From positions 248,001 to 312,000 of the forward strand of contig BAABWY010000002.1 in the NCBI GenBank assembly GCA_040367435.1: DNA of 64,000 nucleotides. The letters run 5' to 3'. Below are positions 3,740 to 44,962 of the stretch, in pieces. Numbering within the stretch: position 1 is the first letter of the stretch; every line of letters starts with the position of its first letter. Under the pieces are notes generated by a model. It searched no databases and was not told the origin of the DNA. It saw only the letters and a program-made list of their open reading frames with translations. This DNA is from Hyphomicrobiales bacterium 4NK60-0047b. GTDB lineage: Bacteria > Pseudomonadota > Alphaproteobacteria > Rhizobiales > HXMU1428-3. The position numbers and the translations under genes are program-made.

Positions 3740-4381
3740 TTACTCAATCACGATTAGATGATTTACAAGTTCATCAAGCGGCTCACTTCCTGGTGGGAAA
3801 TGTTCCGAGAGCCACTCACCAGAGTGATTAATGGCGGTAACAAAGCCTTTTTTTGGTTTTTTATTCTTAATATCAAGTGCCAATTGCCGCACCAATGCAT
3901 CCCATTCAGAAGCTGGAATTTTTTCATAAATTCCCATATCCCCAATCACTTCTGCATGATGCTCAGCGATTGATACAAAAATCATAATGCCAGTTCGCCC
4001 TGAGGTTGTATGCATCTCTTGCGCTGCAAATTGCTCTAATGCATGGGCATGGGCCCACTTTTTCTTCAATGTCGTTGGAACGATCCAATATCTAAACGGC
4101 CGAAAAGACAAAAGAAGGGCTAGTGTGACAAAACAAATCAATTGTATGAAATAGATCTTTTCAGCAGACCAAATTAAAAATTGCCCCTCAGTATAACGAG
4201 GGAGGTAAATCAAAATCAGAGGAATAAGCAAAGCCACAAAGGCAGCCAGAAACAAAGGCAACAATCGATAACTGCCAGATTGTGCAGCAAGCACAGCCAC
4301 AATCTCGCCACTCGTGCGTTTCTCTTGATCAATGATGGCTTCACTAATTTCTTTTGCATCATCTTTGTTCAACAAATACAT
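3740..4381 (-). CDS. TPM-domain membrane protein (YgcG/DUF477 relative)
   Basis: The protein has 213 residues. The N-terminal part (about 1-30) carries the TPM-like opening with the motif EKRTSGEIVAV. Two hydrophobic segments follow at roughly 40-60 and 78-95, then a C-terminal stretch with GRTGIMIFVSIAEHHAEVIGD and a GFVTAINHSGEWL region, as in the short TPM proteins that follow ygcG in many proteobacteria. A GGGAG lies just upstream of the ATG. It is 45 bp downstream of the larger TPM gene and in the same direction, so the two are probably cotranscribed. The biochemical role is not known; the TPM fold has been linked to phosphatase activity and to assembly of photosystem II in other organisms, which cannot be transferred here. 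Confidence 0.85.
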   Translation of the reverse strand: MYLLNKDDAKEISEAIIDQEKRTSGEIVAVLAAQSGSYRLLPLFLAAFVALLIPLILIYLPRYTEGQFLIWSAEKIYFIQLICFVTLALLLSFRPFRYWIVPTTLKKKWAHAHALEQFAAQEMHTTSGRTGIMIFVSIAEHHAEVIGDMGIYEKIPASEWDALVRQLALDIKNKKPKKGFVTAINHSGEWLSEHFPPGSEPLDELVNHLIVIE

Positions 4382-4426: not shown

Positions 4427-5236
4427 CTACCAACTACCCGAAGCGCCACCACCACCAAAACTACCGCCGCCACCAGAAAATCCGCCACTACGAGGACGGC
4501 GAAACCCGCCCGTACCACTCCATCCATCTGAAGCACCACCAAAATCAGCAGGAACGATCACAACGCCTCCAGGCATACGCCCGCCAACTTGTCGGTCCCG
4601 TGCAAGTGAGCTGATGAGATAAATGAAAGGAACAAGCCAAAACGCAAAAAAGATAAATGGTAGTAAGGGATCAATCTTAGCAACCGGCTTTCGTGCTCGA
4701 AGCGCAACTTCTTCACCATTACCAAGCAAGCTTGCCTTGATGTCTTCAACACCGGCAAAAATTCCTGCAACAAGGTTTCCCTTCTTAAAGTGAGGTAAAA
4801 TACGGCGCTGAATGATTAGACCCGCTAAGCTGTCCGGTAAATTTCCCTCAAGACCGCGTCCAACTTCAATGCGCACTTGCCTCTCATTCGGCGCAATGAT
4901 CAACAAAACCCCATTGTCTTTACCAGCCTGGCCAATCCCCCAATGACGCCCTAACTGATAGCCATAATCTTCAATGGGGTATCCACCCAAACTCTTGAGC
5001 GTAACAACCACAATCTGGTCTGTTGACTGCCCCTCAACTTCAGAGAGTTGTTTGGTAAGCCGTGCTTCATCTTCAGCCGAAATAATCTGTGCCTGGTCAA
5101 CAACCCGGCCTGTTAATTTTGGAAAGTCAGGAGAAGCCGCAAAACCAATTTCAAACAACACAAACCAAATACATAGCGCTAACCCCAAAACGGGTAGAGC
5201 TGATCTATGAGTATTATGCTTGCAAATAATATTCAA
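4427..5236 (-). CDS. TPM-domain protein, YgcG family, secreted N-terminus and Gly/Ser-rich tail
   Basis: The protein has 269 residues. A signal-like hydrophobic segment occupies about 14-33 (LPVLGLALCIWFVLFEIGFA). The TPM domain covers about 38-170 and includes LTGRVVDQAQIISAEDEARL and DNGVLLIIAPNERQVRIEVGRGLEG, both hallmarks of the family. A transmembrane helix follows at about 190-212, and the C-terminus is a low-complexity Gly/Ser tail (GGGGSFGGGGASGSW). This is the standard architecture of YgcG-type proteins encoded beside LemA. The start is a TTG with GAGG about 9 nt upstream; no ATG fits better. The gap to lemA contains a terminator and nested short repeats, so expression may be partly uncoupled from lemA. 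Confidence 0.88.
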   Translation of the reverse strand: MNIICKHNTHRSALPVLGLALCIWFVLFEIGFAASPDFPKLTGRVVDQAQIISAEDEARLTKQLSEVEGQSTDQIVVVTLKSLGGYPIEDYGYQLGRHWGIGQAGKDNGVLLIIAPNERQVRIEVGRGLEGNLPDSLAGLIIQRRILPHFKKGNLVAGIFAGVEDIKASLLGNGEEVALRARKPVAKIDPLLPFIFFAFWLVPFIYLISSLARDRQVGGRMPGGVVIVPADFGGASDGWSGTGGFRRPRSGGFSGGGGSFGGGGASGSW

Positions 5237-5436: not shown

Positions 5437-6045
5437 TCATTTAAAATTAACTTCAGGAACTTTGGTTTTTTCAGCACTAACGGAAAAAGTCTCCATCAAT
5501 TCAGAATCCGGATAGACAAGTGATTTCCACCACCGTCCAGGGATGGTTTTTAACTCTGTATTATATTGTTTTACAGCGTCAATATAATCTCGCCGTGCAA
5601 TAGCAATTCTATTTTCCGTACCCTCAAGTTGAGTTTGCAATGTTAAAAAGTTCTGACTTGATTTCAAATCAGGATAACTCTCAGAAACAGCAATCAAACG
5701 CCCAAGCGCACCTGAAAGTTGGCTTTGAATTTTTTGAAATTGCTGAAAGACTTCCGGATTAGTCGTAATATCTTTGGGCAATTGCAAGCTCGTGGCTTTC
5801 GCTCGTGCTTCAACAACCTCTTTAAAGACTTTTTCCTCTTGAGCCGCAAACCCTTTAACCGTTTCAATCAAATTAGGGATTAATTCAGCCCGCCGTTGAT
5901 ATTGATTTAAAACATTACTCCAGGCAGCCTTAGCTTGCTCTTCTTTTGTTGGAATATTATTGATCCCACACCCGGAAAGACCAGCTACCCCTAAAAACAA
6001 GATCGTAAAATACAAAATCCTGATCAAACTGATCATTTTAGACAT
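5437..6045 (-). CDS. lemA: LemA family protein
   Basis: The protein has 202 residues. A hydrophobic N-terminal segment ends in GVAGLSGCGIN, a plausible lipobox-type cleavage site. The body matches LemA throughout: AAWSNVLNQYQRRAELIPNL, LIETVKGFAAQEEKV, ARAKATSLQ, LSGALGRLIAVSESYPDLKS, NFLTLQTQLEGTENRIAIAR and YIDAVKQYN. LemA proteins are helical and membrane-anchored with the bulk outside the cytoplasm; their function is unsettled. GGGAGAG precedes the ATG with good spacing. Together with the two TPM genes downstream this forms the common lemA-ygcG-TPM trio. Confidence 0.93.
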   Translation of the reverse strand: MSKMISLIRILYFTILFLGVAGLSGCGINNIPTKEEQAKAAWSNVLNQYQRRAELIPNLIETVKGFAAQEEKVFKEVVEARAKATSLQLPKDITTNPEVFQQFQKIQSQLSGALGRLIAVSESYPDLKSSQNFLTLQTQLEGTENRIAIARRDYIDAVKQYNTELKTIPGRWWKSLVYPDSELMETFSVSAEKTKVPEVNFK

Positions 6046-6567
6046 TAATGGCTCTCCCTTTCAGCTAAAAACGCCAATAACTGGTGTAATCAAAGCTTCG
6101 CTGCGATGCAAGTAGAGAATAAGATCCTACTCAATTTTTGGTACAAATAAGCAACATTGAGGCCGCGAATAAAATATTTATGCCGAATACAGCAAAAAAA
6201 CAAAGAAGGACCAATGAGGCCGCTTGACTTGAGAGTAAAACAAGTCGAATATAAAGACACAAAATGTTGTTATAACAATATTTTAAAGATTGAAGCTCTT
6301 CAGTAGAATTAATCTGAAATAGAAACTTCTAAAATACTTAAACTTTAGTATCGCAGAAATTTTTCAGTTTAACTAGCCTGGAAATTTTTAATCTCGAATT
6401 TATCAAGTTCACTTTAACCATGGTTAAGGTCACTTGTTAAATTCAAATCGTAAAATTTATTTTACAACATCTAATGATGCAAGGGGGGGTGGCACCATCA
6501 GGGTCTCCCCTAATTTTTTGAGTAAAGCTTAAATAGCTTATTAATATGTGAGGGAGTGCGTATAATT
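6046..6567. other. Intergenic region between lemA and the repeat protein gene
   Basis: This 520-bp AT-rich stretch has no convincing gene. It probably holds the divergent promoters of lemA (minus) and the repeat protein (plus). I see a perfect 14-bp palindrome, TTAACCATGGTTAA, at 6414-6427, and a run of seven Gs at 6483-6489 that can pair with CCCC at 6507-6510 and is followed by TAATTTTTT. The latter could be a leader hairpin or attenuator of the downstream gene. Neither has a known counterpart that I can name. Confidence 0.35.
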
Positions 6568-8001
6568 ATGTATATGCGTAGCGTTGCGCTAATAGTCGCA
6601 GCACTTGGGACAATCACACTAACTACAAATGCAAATGCAACATCGCGTTTGGATCGTGAGAGAACCCATAGAGCCGCACCAGCTTGTACTGTCCATCGGG
6701 TACAGCCAGTGCACTATCGTCAGGTTAAACGTAAAGTTCTAGTTTCTAGAGCAAGACGTGAAGTTCGGTACACACCAGCTGTTTACGGTTGGCAAGCTTC
6801 AAAACAGCTTGTTCGTCGTGGATGGACTGAAACAAGAGTTGTTCCAGCTAGACATCGTCTTAAAATGGAACGTGTTTTGGTAAGCAAAGCTTACGCAAAA
6901 ACACATCACACACCAGCTCAGTATTCAACACGCACTCATCGTGTGCTTGTTAAGCGCGGCTGGACTGAAACTCGTTCAACACCAGCAACATATGGCTGGA
7001 GATCACAACGTGTTCTAGTAAAACGCGGTTGGACTGAAACTCGTAAATCACCAGCAACATATGGCTGGAGATCAGAGCGTGTTCTAGTGAAACGTGGTTG
7101 GACCGAAACTCGTTCAACACGAGCAAAATACGGCTGGAGAACAGAACGCGTCATGACAAGCCGTGGTGGTTATGATCGTGTTAGCACACCAGCTGTTTAC
7201 GGATACAAAAAACAACGTGTCCTCGTAAAACGCGGTGGTGTTCACTACACAAAATCAGCACCTGTTTACAAAACAGTTTACAGAACCAAGCGTGTAGCTG
7301 TTCGTAGCAAGCCTTGTCATTGCGATGATCGTGGACATCGTCATCGTTCTCGCACAACATATAAAACCAAACGTGTTGCAACACGTGTATTGGTTCAAAG
7401 CGGCCGCCGTATCGCTCACCGCACACCAGCTGTATACGCATGGAAACAACAACGTGTTCAAGTGAAACGCGCATCTCACCGTCTAGTACGCCGCCCAGCG
7501 GTTTACAAAACAGTTAAGAGAAAAGTGATTGTTTCACGTGGTCGCACACATCGTGTATATCACCCTGCAGTATACGCAACAAAACGCGTTAAAGTGATGA
7601 CATCTCGCGGTCGCACGCACCGTGTATATCACCCTGCAGTATACGCAACGAAACGCGTTAAAGTAATGACATCTCGTGGTCGCACACACCGTGTATATCA
7701 CAGAGCTGTTTACAAAAACGTGACACGCAAAGTGATGGTACGCCGTGCTAGAACTTGGACTGAAAGAAGACCAGCTCGCTATCGCACTCGTCTTGTTCGT
7801 GTTCAGGTATCTGCAGCTCGTAGACACCATGTGAAACACGCAGCAGTTTACAGAACTGTAAAACGCCGCGTAGTGGTATCACCTTCGAAACGCCACGTTG
7901 TTGTTAAGCCAGCAGTATATAGCTGGAAAACAACTCGCGTAGCAGTTCGTGGTCACCGCGCACACCGTTCTTATCGTGGACGTCCTTGTCGTAATAGATA
8001 A
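6568..8001 (+). CDS. Secreted, highly basic protein built of about 18 tandem repeats
   Basis: The protein has about 477 residues. A signal peptide covers roughly the first 25 (SVALIVAALGTITLTTNANA). The rest is about 18 units of 20-24 residues following the pattern [KR]RVLVKRGWTETRSTPATYGW: a Val-rich strand ending in basic residues, a variable polar turn, then P-A-x-Y. It is loaded with Arg, Lys, His, Tyr and Val and nearly free of Asp and Glu. One unit (about 235-255) carries a KPCHCDDRGHRHRS insertion with two Cys. A similar repeat rhythm occurs in some cell-surface or peptidoglycan-associated proteins of other bacteria, so an envelope role is a guess. I chose the ATG at 6568, 11 nt after GGGAG; a GTG at 6556 overlaps that site. 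It stands alone, with a strong terminator 130 bp downstream. Confidence 0.8.
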   Translation: MYMRSVALIVAALGTITLTTNANATSRLDRERTHRAAPACTVHRVQPVHYRQVKRKVLVSRARREVRYTPAVYGWQASKQLVRRGWTETRVVPARHRLKMERVLVSKAYAKTHHTPAQYSTRTHRVLVKRGWTETRSTPATYGWRSQRVLVKRGWTETRKSPATYGWRSERVLVKRGWTETRSTRAKYGWRTERVMTSRGGYDRVSTPAVYGYKKQRVLVKRGGVHYTKSAPVYKTVYRTKRVAVRSKPCHCDDRGHRHRSRTTYKTKRVATRVLVQSGRRIAHRTPAVYAWKQQRVQVKRASHRLVRRPAVYKTVKRKVIVSRGRTHRVYHPAVYATKRVKVMTSRGRTHRVYHPAVYATKRVKVMTSRGRTHRVYHRAVYKNVTRKVMVRRARTWTERRPARYRTRLVRVQVSAARRHHVKHAAVYRTVKRRVVVSPSKRHVVVKPAVYSWKTTRVAVRGHRAHRSYRGRPCRNR

Positions 8002-8123
8002 GTCGTCACAGATAAGTAAAATAGACAACGGAACAAAAAGACTTGGGTAAACTCAAGGTGAAACATTAGATATTTTATGAATATCAAATCACCGACATTA
8101 TGTTGCCCATATCTAATGTAACG

Positions 8124-8168
8124 AAAAAAAGGCACATGATAGAAATATCATGTGCCTTTTTTGTTTTT
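8124..8168 (+). terminator. Strong intrinsic terminator
   Basis: A perfect 10-bp stem, GGCACATGAT/ATCATGTGCC, with a 6-nt loop is followed by a long T-tract on the plus strand and preceded by seven As. It ends the repeat-protein transcript. Confidence 0.9.
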
Positions 8169-8310
8169 TTCTAACGTTTCAGTAAAACTCGCAATATCAT
8201 AAAACTTGCATAGCAAATATTTAGCCTGCGGCGAGATAATAGATATACATTGTGCGTACCACATATAAAATGAACCCTGACATTCATATAATCAAAAAGC
8301 TGGCAAACAC

Positions 8311-9264
8311 ATGACCAAAATAGTTTTTCTCGATAAAGGTACCTTTCCAACAACTCTGGAAGCCAAAAAACCATCATTTCCTCATGAATGGCAAGAGTTT
8401 GAAGGAACTCCAAAAGATCAGATCATTCCAAGACTTCAAGGGGCAGATATCGCAATAACGAATAAAGTGAAGCTTGATGATGAAACCTTATCAAGCCTCC
8501 CTGACCTAAAAATGATCGCCATAGCAGCAACTGGTTTTGATCATGTTGACATCCATTCTGCACATGCAAAAGACATTACAGTCGCAAATGTAAAAGGTTA
8601 CGCCGTTAATTCTGTGCCTGAACATGCCATGATGATGATCATGGCTCTTAGCCGTTCTCTTCTAGGCTTTCAATCAGATATAGAAAAAGGCGAATGGCAA
8701 AAAGCCAATCAATTTTGCTTCTTTAACCACCCTATTGAAGACCTGCATGACAAAACTCTAGGTATCATTGGCCGCGGAGTGCTAGGTGCTGGTCTTGCTC
8801 GCCTTGCAAGTGGTTTCGGTATGGGGATCATGTATGCTGGGCGCCGGGGGGATAAAAATCCTCATAAACCTTATATAGAATTTGATGAGTTCTTGGATCA
8901 GAGTGACATCATCTCCATACACTGTCCCTTAAATGACCATACAAGAGATTTGATCACAAAAAATGAATTCAGCAAAATGTCCCGCAATCCAATTCTTATC
9001 AACGCATCACGCGGCGGTATCGTAAATGAAGCTGATGCTGTTGACGCAGTAAATCAAAGAAAAATCAGAGCCCTTGGTGTTGATTGCCTCTCATTAGAGC
9101 CCCCAAGAAACGGTAATCCCTTACTTTCCATCGCACATTATCCAAACGTGATCATCACCCCCCACGTCGCCTGGGCCAGCACAGACGCCGTCCAAAACTT
9201 ATGGGATAATTTAATTAACAATATTGAAGACTGGAAAAAAGGCGATCTAAAAACTGCCCTGTAA
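8311..9264 (+). CDS. D-2-hydroxyacid dehydrogenase, glycerate/hydroxypyruvate reductase type
   Basis: The protein has 317 residues, the usual family length. The catalytic domain wraps around a Rossmann domain marked by GIIGRGVLGAGLARLASGFG (about 150-170). The dehydrogenase signature with Arg is LINASRGGIVNEADAV, and the catalytic His lies in NVIITPHVAWAS near the C-terminus. These enzymes use NAD(P)H to interconvert 2-oxoacids and D-2-hydroxyacids; resemblance is closest to glycerate dehydrogenase (HprA), but the substrate cannot be fixed from sequence alone. It is monocistronic and convergent with the diguanylate cyclase gene, with a large hairpin element between them. Confidence 0.88.
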   Translation: MTKIVFLDKGTFPTTLEAKKPSFPHEWQEFEGTPKDQIIPRLQGADIAITNKVKLDDETLSSLPDLKMIAIAATGFDHVDIHSAHAKDITVANVKGYAVNSVPEHAMMMIMALSRSLLGFQSDIEKGEWQKANQFCFFNHPIEDLHDKTLGIIGRGVLGAGLARLASGFGMGIMYAGRRGDKNPHKPYIEFDEFLDQSDIISIHCPLNDHTRDLITKNEFSKMSRNPILINASRGGIVNEADAVDAVNQRKIRALGVDCLSLEPPRNGNPLLSIAHYPNVIITPHVAWASTDAVQNLWDNLINNIEDWKKGDLKTAL

Positions 9265-33556: not shown

Positions 33557-33601
33557 TAAGAAGAACCAATAAGTAAGCTACTTAAGGTTCCATTACTTAG
33601 C

Positions 33602-33653
33602 CCCTGATTTCGTACCCTGATCTCGCCCCCTGATCTCGCCCCCTGATCTCGCC
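33602..33653. repeat. 13-nt tandem repeat, four units
   Basis: Four adjoining units read CCCTGATTTCGTA, then CCCTGATCTCGCC three times. The last unit overlaps one arm of a 9-bp inverted repeat, CTCGCCATG (33648-33656) with CATGGCGAG (33693-33701). Confidence 0.85.
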
Positions 33654-36384: not shown

Positions 36385-36576
36385 AGCGCGGTTGCAAGTG
36401 GACAACCTAAAGCGCTACTAATACACACTAAATCGCGGCGGTTGCTAGTGGGCAACGTCAAGCACTACTAATACACACTAAAACGCGAAGGTTGCTAGTG
36501 GGCAACCTCAAGCACTACTGATACACACTAAAACGCGACGGTTGCTAGTGGGCAACCTGAAGGAGCACTAAAAAGA
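36385..36576 (+). repeat. Four-fold tandem array of the short hairpin element, period 50 nt
   Basis: Copies begin at 36390, 36440, 36490 and 36540, exactly 50 nt apart. Each has GGTTGC(A/T)AGTGG(A/G)CAACC, a tail of the AAGCACTACT type, and an identical linker ATACACACTAAAACGCG. Substitutions are few. The last copy's tail ACTAAAAAGAGGA holds the murJ ribosome site. Nothing else is visible in the 313-bp oxyR-murJ gap. Confidence 0.88.
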
Positions 36577-43894: not shown

Positions 43895-44962
43895 ATGCCC
43901 CATAAAATCCCTGTCACCGTAATCACTGGCTTTCTTGGCGCTGGTAAAACAACACTCATTCGCAACTTGATTGAAAGCGCCAATGGCAAACGCCTAGCTC
44001 TGATCATCAATGAATTCGGTGACGTCGGCGTAGATGGTGAAGTTTTAAAATCTTGCGGCGATGAAAATTGTACCGAAGATGACATTGTAGAACTGGCAAA
44101 CGGTTGTATCTGTTGTACCGTCGCAGAAGATTTTATTCCCACAATGGAAAAATTACTGAGCCGCGATCAGCGCCCGGATCACATCATTATTGAAACATCC
44201 GGCCTCGCTTTACCGCAACCACTAGTACGCGCATTTAATTGGCCAGAGATTAAAACCGAAGTGACCGTTGATGGCGTTGTAACAATCGTCGATGCCCCTG
44301 CCGTCTCAGAAGGACGCTTTGCCGCTAATGAACATCAAGTCCAAGCTCAGCGAGAACAAGACGAAGCACTAGATCACGAAACACCACTTGGCGAGCTTTT
44401 TGAAGACCAGGTGAATTGCGCTGATCTGATTGTTCTCTCGAAAACAGATCTAATCGACGATCAAGCCATAACCAATGTAAAGGCTCTCGTCTCTAAAGAA
44501 ACAAGAGACGGCGTGCAAATGGTCAAATCTCAAAAAGGCAAGCTACCATTAAATGTGCTTTTGGGACTAGACATGAAAGCTGAAGAAGACAATCGCATGT
44601 CGCACCATGAGCGTCATCACGCAGCTCACCACCATGACGATGACCACCATCACGATCATGACCATCACCATCATCACGACCACGATGATTTCGAAAGTTT
44701 CAGCATTACCTTAGAGACAATCGATGACGTGGAAAGCTTTAAAGCCAAACTGGTTGAGACCATCAAAACTCACGACATCTTGCGGCTTAAGGGCTTTGTA
44801 TCTGTAAAAGACAAAGACATGCGCTTGGTAATACAAGCTGTTGGCCCAAGACTAGACGCATACTACGACAAACCCTGGAACCTAGAAGAAACCCGCACGT
44901 CGAATTTGGTTGTGATTGGCCAAGCTGGGATGGATAGAGACACAATTGCATGCTCAGTGTAA
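43895..44962 (+). CDS. cobW: CobW, GTP-binding metallochaperone of the cobalamin pathway
   Basis: The protein has 355 residues. The Walker A motif is GFLGAGKTTLIRNL, followed by the ELANGCICCTVAEDF metal-binding CxCC motif. A His/Asp-rich loop at about 230-260 (HHHDDDHHHDHDHHHHH) is typical of CobW. The C-terminal CobW_C domain ends near WNLEETRTSNLVVIGQAG. CobW is thought to deliver cobalt to the CobN chelatase. A broken DUF4238 gene now lies between cobW and cobN, which are often adjacent. Confidence 0.95.
   Translation: MPHKIPVTVITGFLGAGKTTLIRNLIESANGKRLALIINEFGDVGVDGEVLKSCGDENCTEDDIVELANGCICCTVAEDFIPTMEKLLSRDQRPDHIIIETSGLALPQPLVRAFNWPEIKTEVTVDGVVTIVDAPAVSEGRFAANEHQVQAQREQDEALDHETPLGELFEDQVNCADLIVLSKTDLIDDQAITNVKALVSKETRDGVQMVKSQKGKLPLNVLLGLDMKAEEDNRMSHHERHHAAHHHDDDHHHDHDHHHHHDHDDFESFSITLETIDDVESFKAKLVETIKTHDILRLKGFVSVKDKDMRLVIQAVGPRLDAYYDKPWNLEETRTSNLVVIGQAGMDRDTIACSV

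Follow-up and report, generated by a model that had tools for sequence, protein, structure and literature searches.

The 64,000-nucleotide window, by which we mean the whole stretch of DNA analysed, encodes a basic 23-residue repeat protein that matches an unnamed bacterial repeat family. The members of this family counted outside the order Hyphomicrobiales end in a peptidoglycan-binding domain, and those counted inside the order lack it. The descent of the window protein from a peptidoglycan-binding envelope family is well supported by these comparisons. A role in the envelope, within the periplasm, is likely, and envelope work is the most likely function because more distant family members end in a cell-wall-binding domain. 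That the protein is held to the wall or outer membrane by its charge is a more tentative proposal, somewhat below an even chance. Our reading as a whole, of a Sec-exported envelope protein that is a modified family member and in whose basic branches charge has replaced the domain, comes close to an even chance but just short of it.

The reading frame is open from a GTG at 6556, which would add four residues, to 8001. The ATG at 6568 is the more likely start because a Shine-Dalgarno-like GAGGGAG precedes it and genus relatives start at that ATG. The coordinates originally predicted, from this ATG to the stop at 8001, thus stand and give 477 residues (Table 1). A signal peptide had also been predicted; it was read by eye, and the N-termini of six named genus loci resemble it. 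Inspection by eye found no lipobox cysteine in this signal, which ends in ANA. The centre of the protein sits where short family members have a W...C(K)V linker; locus L036 has no cysteine there.

Table 1. Positions of the repeat gene, its parts and its neighbours in the window
Feature	Positions	Strand	Basis
Third gene of divergent cluster	3740..4381	-	ORF, genus synteny
TPM-domain protein (PF04536), next after lemA	4427..5236	-	Pfam
Divergent lemA (PF04011)	5437..6045	-	Pfam
Leader hairpin, terminator-like: G-run, loop, CUCCCC, then U-run	6483..6519	+	
Ribosome-binding stretch TGAGGGAGTGCGTAT	6549..6563	+	
Coding sequence, 477 aa, basic 23-residue repeat protein	6568..8001	+	ORF, start comparison, dN/dS
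Signal peptide MYMRSVALIVAALGTITLTTNANA, Sec/SPI-like, ANA before the cut	6568..6639	+	By eye
Array A: eight complete units of 23 aa, with a ninth extending into the centre	6706..7326	+	Anchors 46-230
Centre: CxC (Cys250, Cys252), D/H/R-rich stretch	7300..7356	+	
Imperfect unit without PA.Y anchor	7357..7425	+	By eye
Array B: eight 23-aa units, then C-terminal Cys474	7426..7977	+	Anchors 286-447
Intrinsic terminator, 17 pairs and U-run	8125..8162	+	

The repeat is strongly periodic. Its BLOSUM62 autocorrelation, in BLOSUM units per position, was 1.59 at lag 23 and 1.36 at the double lag of 46, the only strong periods, and the best value from 500 shuffles over lags 3–59 was −0.18. Identity reached 41% at lag 23 and had a median of 9% at other lags. 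Units follow the type PAVYxxxxxRVxVxRGxxxxRxx, and their anchors (0-based residues) mark nine starts from 46 to 230 and eight from 286 to 447, spaced by 23 throughout. With one imperfect unit recognized by eye at residue 263, the total is 18 (17 of them anchored), in agreement with the approximate count first proposed; a unit HMM counts 17. The repeat had been described as 20–24 residues long, and while its presence is upheld, the units are all of 23 residues. The mature part contains 19.9% Arg, 15.0% Val, 7.9% Lys and 6.0% Tyr, with Asp and Glu together at 3.1%. Its net charge is +112 and its pI 11.99, so the expectation of a strongly positive protein with almost no acidic residues was correct. 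At the DNA level, near-identical neighbouring units were predicted near 6950–7140 and 7540–7700 and were found at 6940–7148 (3.0 copies of 69 bp, 85% matches) and 7537–7701 (2.4 copies, 92% matches).

Relatives within the genus bear out the suggestion that whole units were added recently. Complete genus proteins measure 477 (window), 477, 527, 391 and 387 residues, and in the comparison of repeat number that had been proposed, their arrays differ by whole units; the centre varies by other lengths. Contig ends cut or split the gene in three genomes (G002, G005 and G006), where it is present as fragments. The six named genus loci all come from MAGs, labelled Hyphomicrobiales bacterium, Hyphomicrobiaceae bacterium, “Methyloligella sp. 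DHS20C07” and “Rhodomicrobium sp. DHS20C08.” Loss of the frame in relatives, which the original prediction had named as evidence against it, was not seen: the window protein has matches in all eight genus genomes searched, with no stop inside them. The genus copies are under purifying selection, with pairwise dN/dS of 0.05–0.26 over 21 genus pairs, many of them at dS >1. Genus loci that reach far enough keep the same neighbours, among them lemA, the gene at 3740–4381 and a D-2-hydroxyacid dehydrogenase. Cys40 and Cys474 align in all seven rows of alignment A1, four of which are from the genus.

Searches of Pfam, NCBIfam and PDB sequences with the window protein returned no credible match; even at E up to 1, Pfam offered no family for it and the PDB no sequence match. 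Protein searches with it gave matches in 17 of 61 genomes. Two profiles built without the window protein, A6 (from 17 short members) and A9, place it in an unnamed bacterial repeat family. It scores 225.6 bits against A6 and 191.6 bits against A9. Among 300 residue shuffles the top scores were −26.4 and 0.9, respectively, and the protein read backwards gave −28.0 and −14.1; in a further 300 controls, whose composition and 23-residue period were retained while the unit was permuted, the maximum was 18.1 and 19.7. The family match exceeds the effects of composition and period. Profile A6 matches 66 of 297 genomes sampled from the order (eight of them from the window's own genus), 12 of 289 drawn from the class (three inside the order) and 37 of 299 drawn from the phylum (22 inside the order).

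The window protein departs from the standard form of this family. Every one of the 17 rows of A6 has Cys-Tyr close to its start, Trp and Cys in the middle and a Trp late in the sequence, and 11 of the 17 have a C-terminal Cys. The window protein has a Cys after the signal peptide and one at the C-terminus but lacks the central Trp and Cys linker between the arrays; its centre offers a CxC in another context and no Trp. Because this linker is missing, we regard the protein as a modified rather than a canonical member. Short Hyphomicrobiales members (∼190–250 residues and ∼5–8 units; L056, L058 and L066 are examples) share its unit and likewise have no PG_binding_1 domain; of the 17 in A6, all have a Cys close to the start and 11 have one close to the end. 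Compared with them, the window protein is longer, far more basic, and different in its centre. One genome (G032; L008/L195) holds two copies side by side, with eight units in a frame of 257 residues and 16 units in a frame of 441 residues. Two loci from one genus (L101 and L117, in G121 and G197) have four counted units followed by a conserved non-repeat tail (..GASSADIGVGLGFSTGSIYDGY).

Outside the order, which here means the same class and a few cases elsewhere in the phylum (such as L097, L103 and L120), the family has a different ending. A Pfam scan placed PG_binding_1 (PF01471) at the C-terminus of all nine out-of-order members scanned. Our own domain model detected a domain of this type in 19 of 19 out-of-order ORFs versus none of 63 in-order ORFs; the rows come from related genomes and are not fully independent, and the model was built from ten of the 19 proteins, leaving nine independent of it. 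These counts derive from 98 surveyed ORFs, from which we dropped 11 fragments or duplicates and five ORFs with fewer than two counted units (L106, L145 and L146, out of order and with the domain; L126 and L140, in order and without it). When a domain-bearing profile was run against 199 in-order genomes, none of the matches listed spanned both repeats and domain; most were PG_binding_1 stretches of other proteins or repeats of known members. Three of the ORFs behind the domain matches were read (in G166, G029 and G065), and each is PG_binding_1-like without the repeat.

The typical out-of-order protein begins with a signal peptide or lipobox, a CYxRV start and four 23-residue units. It continues with a Trp and GE..C(L)VE linker, four more units, EW...C and the C-terminal PG_binding_1. 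An export signal is visible by eye in most of these proteins, several of the signals being lipobox-like and others SPI-like. Judged by sequence, they and the window protein carry one and the same repeat. Shared features are the 23-residue PA.Y..V...V.V unit, a Cys near the start, a Cys between the arrays and a Cys after the second array, two four-unit arrays being typical of the domain-bearing proteins. The window protein differs in that it has neither PG_binding_1 nor the canonical linker, contains 18 units rather than ∼8, and carries a net charge per residue of 0.25 rather than ∼0. In each of two genomes (L155 and L156, in G489 and G375), two members of the PG_binding_1 type lie in tandem on one strand. 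Lipopolysaccharide, nucleic acid and peptidoglycan had been put forward as ligands; only peptidoglycan gains evidence, indirectly, through the domain in these relatives.

Charge and array length vary widely across the family. Calculated over the repeat region, net charge per residue has a median of 0.02 among the 19 ORFs with the domain, 0.06 (0.01–0.32) among 52 short in-order ORFs, and 0.25 (0.24–0.27) among 11 expanded ORFs of 11–22 counted units, which come from five families (f1, f9, f12, f19 and f26). Length and charge are not strictly coupled, since two short ORFs of three and two units (L016 and L017) are very basic, at 0.31–0.32; several others lie at 0.15–0.22. Nor is charge a general replacement for the domain, because most domain-less short in-order ORFs are not strongly basic. 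Strong charge is not family-wide, and thus only in the basic branches could the protein work through its charge. A tree of RpoB, which covered 24 of 26 genomes since no RpoB was matched in G025 and G256, placed the 20 in-order rows on one side of a 99/99 branch and rejected a single clade of the five expanded rows (p-AU 0.007; f1 twice, f9, f12 and f26). The expanded family f19 is absent from this tree because G025 gave no RpoB match. The simple reading is that expansions occurred separately in several lineages; a single gain followed by several losses could also leave the expanded taxa non-monophyletic.

Structure prediction had been proposed as a check for a repeating beta fold. Where strands appear in either AF2 model, each unit has one short (5–7) and one long (12–14) strand, but the models are too weak to name a fold. 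The full-length model is poor (pLDDT 35.7, pTM 0.18), as is that of a four-unit repeat window (pLDDT 62.8, pTM 0.27), whose alignment kept register; the alignment of a five-unit window slid out of register. A Foldseek search of the PDB gave no match below E 0.45, and no barrel family was matched in Pfam. Because both models are poor and Foldseek found nothing below that value, a beta stalk must be called a guess.

The neighbourhood may offer a further link to the envelope. The gene was predicted to be isolated; no other gene accompanies it on its strand, but lemA, in divergent orientation, is a recurrent neighbour in five families. The count took in 64 of the 66 family-bearing in-order genomes (all but G005 and G117) and 12 out of order; among the 64, lemA turned up in 55 and was missed in nine. 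In 17 of these 55, no more than 2 kb separates it from the repeat gene, and the two are divergent by strand each time (seven in f1, three each in f2, f12 and f32, and one in f10). The pairing was not seen in the other 38, some of which are in many contigs. None of the 12 out-of-order genomes has such a pair within 2 kb; one of them, G813, has both genes ∼4 kb apart. At the corresponding locus, G018 and G171 carry relatives of the TPM gene, and G018 and G155 carry relatives of the gene at 3740–4381. TPM domains are proposed to help assemble membrane-linked complexes (PMC11237479, PMC12419801), in a chaperone-like manner according to the first of these papers. The divergent lemA and TPM genes suggest a shared envelope function.

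A mobile or viral origin of the window protein was considered and rejected; it has no relative in plasmids or viral contigs, and genus synteny is kept. Two short members likewise have no relatives in viral contigs. A single weak match to a plasmid turned up, from Methylobacterium bullatum at 28% identity, and the domain-bearing L097 matches plasmids and phages through its C-terminal part only.

The working of such a protein can be outlined as follows. Each 23-residue unit would supply one short and one long beta strand, as the models hint, and the arrays might together make an elongated beta stalk or sheet within the periplasm. Where the branch is basic, Arg, Lys and His could hold the protein to anionic peptidoglycan, to LPS and phospholipid, or to both, and this hold would stand in for the lost wall-binding domain. 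Placed between wall and outer membrane, the protein may then serve as a spacer, a tether or a coat. Agrobacterium tumefaciens and related species are reported to have no Lpp and to tether peptidoglycan to OMPs (PMC11527210). With known outer membrane–peptidoglycan tethers (Lpp, Pal and LDT-linked OMPs), the window protein would share only this putative role; it differs from them in having no Pfam or NCBIfam match to such a family and no lipobox by eye. A more elaborate version, in which PG_binding_1 was lost, the arrays grew separately in several lineages into a polycation that replaces the domain electrostatically, and the product serves with LemA and TPM as a length-adjustable wall–membrane spacer, we consider rather unlikely.

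Other explanations of the same features must be weighed. The polycation could leave or coat the cell and bind extracellular DNA, acidic polysaccharide or biofilm surfaces, as a matrix or adhesion protein would. A signal peptide in which no lipobox is seen by eye, the net charge of +112, and Tyr/Arg-rich repeats of variable copy number within the genus are what one would expect of such a protein. However, no autotransporter, sorting, secretion or C-terminal membrane-anchor domain is among its Pfam and NCBIfam matches, distant relatives carry a wall-binding domain, and passage through the outer membrane would be left unexplained; we judge this alternative unlikely. The protein might instead cover LPS and phospholipid head groups and so protect the outer membrane against cationic peptides, a shortage of divalent cations or envelope stress, together with LemA and TPM. 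Its net charge and the divergent lemA in five families are consistent with protection of this kind, as is the chaperone-like action on membrane-linked complexes proposed for TPM domains (PMC11237479). Yet Pfam and NCBIfam show no LPS-binding domain in it, the pairing was not seen in the majority of lemA-bearing genomes, and those parts of the literature that we examined assign no function to LemA, which makes this proposal quite improbable.

Two further alternatives question how much the repeat itself matters. Slippage or unequal recombination may have added units in a mostly neutral way, leaving the function of the short protein unchanged while the extra units and charge contribute little. 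Near-identical neighbouring units and whole-unit differences among close relatives are the expected marks of such growth. The low dN/dS argues against it, although exchange between units could lower this ratio and dS is above 1 in many pairs; so do the lack of stops inside the matches in all eight genus genomes and the narrow band of net charge shared by all 11 expanded ORFs of five families. We assign neutral growth a low probability. Finally, the gene could be an untranslated tandem array that merely happens to be open. Nothing beyond the repeat itself favours this, while the start region, the ribosome-binding stretch and the terminator recur in the genus, dN/dS is well below 1 and the family profile match beats its controls; such an array is extremely improbable.

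An exported tandem-repeat protein is a known kind of protein. The repeat family and its recharged, domain-less variant have no model in the copies of Pfam and NCBIfam searched, and we found no publication naming the 23-residue repeat among titles within the literature and terms searched. At one end of the natural series that the family provides are near-neutral proteins of ∼8 units carrying a wall-binding domain, and at the other are polycations in which as many as 22 units were counted. This series, which includes the 8- and 16-unit copies in one genome, allows the takeover of a binding domain's role by charge to be tested. A further gain is an envelope candidate for an order in which wall–membrane links are unlike those of E. 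coli.

Signals for expression surround the gene. The ribosome-binding stretch TGAGGGAGTGCGTAT differs by at most one change in all seven genus loci, and TGAGGGAGTGCRTAT has one match in its own genome. Genus loci have a G-run hairpin and U-run ∼50–85 bases upstream of the start; the G-run, 6–8 long, and the C-run of this leader are kept in seven of seven genus loci aligned. Fold z-scores ranged from −0.8 to −1.6 for the five sequences folded, and covariation is slight. Because these scores are weak and the covariation slight, the leader structure is only suggested and leader control is only a lead. The CUCCC of the leader hairpin could also pair with GGGAG in the ribosome-binding stretch, in the manner of an attenuator or switch. 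Within 6000–8400, nothing reaches an Rfam gathering score; in the window as a whole, only a tRNA elsewhere does. A palindrome at ∼6416, TTAACCATGGTTAA, resembles a CtrA site, and CtrA control was rejected: when upstream regions are aligned, only the window has the palindrome intact, L032 keeps it in part, and L031, L033, L034, L035 and L036 do not keep it.

A strong terminator had been predicted downstream and was located, and a similar hairpin follows the gene in three of three further genus loci scanned. The accompanying prediction of high expression gained no support: codon adaptation is 0.587, which ranks 20 of 46 among window ORFs (median 0.569), measured against a reference of minus-strand ORFs around rpoB, a few of which are not translation genes. 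Elsewhere in the window, we observed a 50-bp tandem repeat at 36389–36562 (3.5 copies, 90% matches) whose unit contains the inverted repeat GGTTGC...GCAACC, as well as short tandem repeats at 44626–44689 (overlapping units of 15–24 bp) and 33601–33653 (a 13-bp unit, 4.1 copies).
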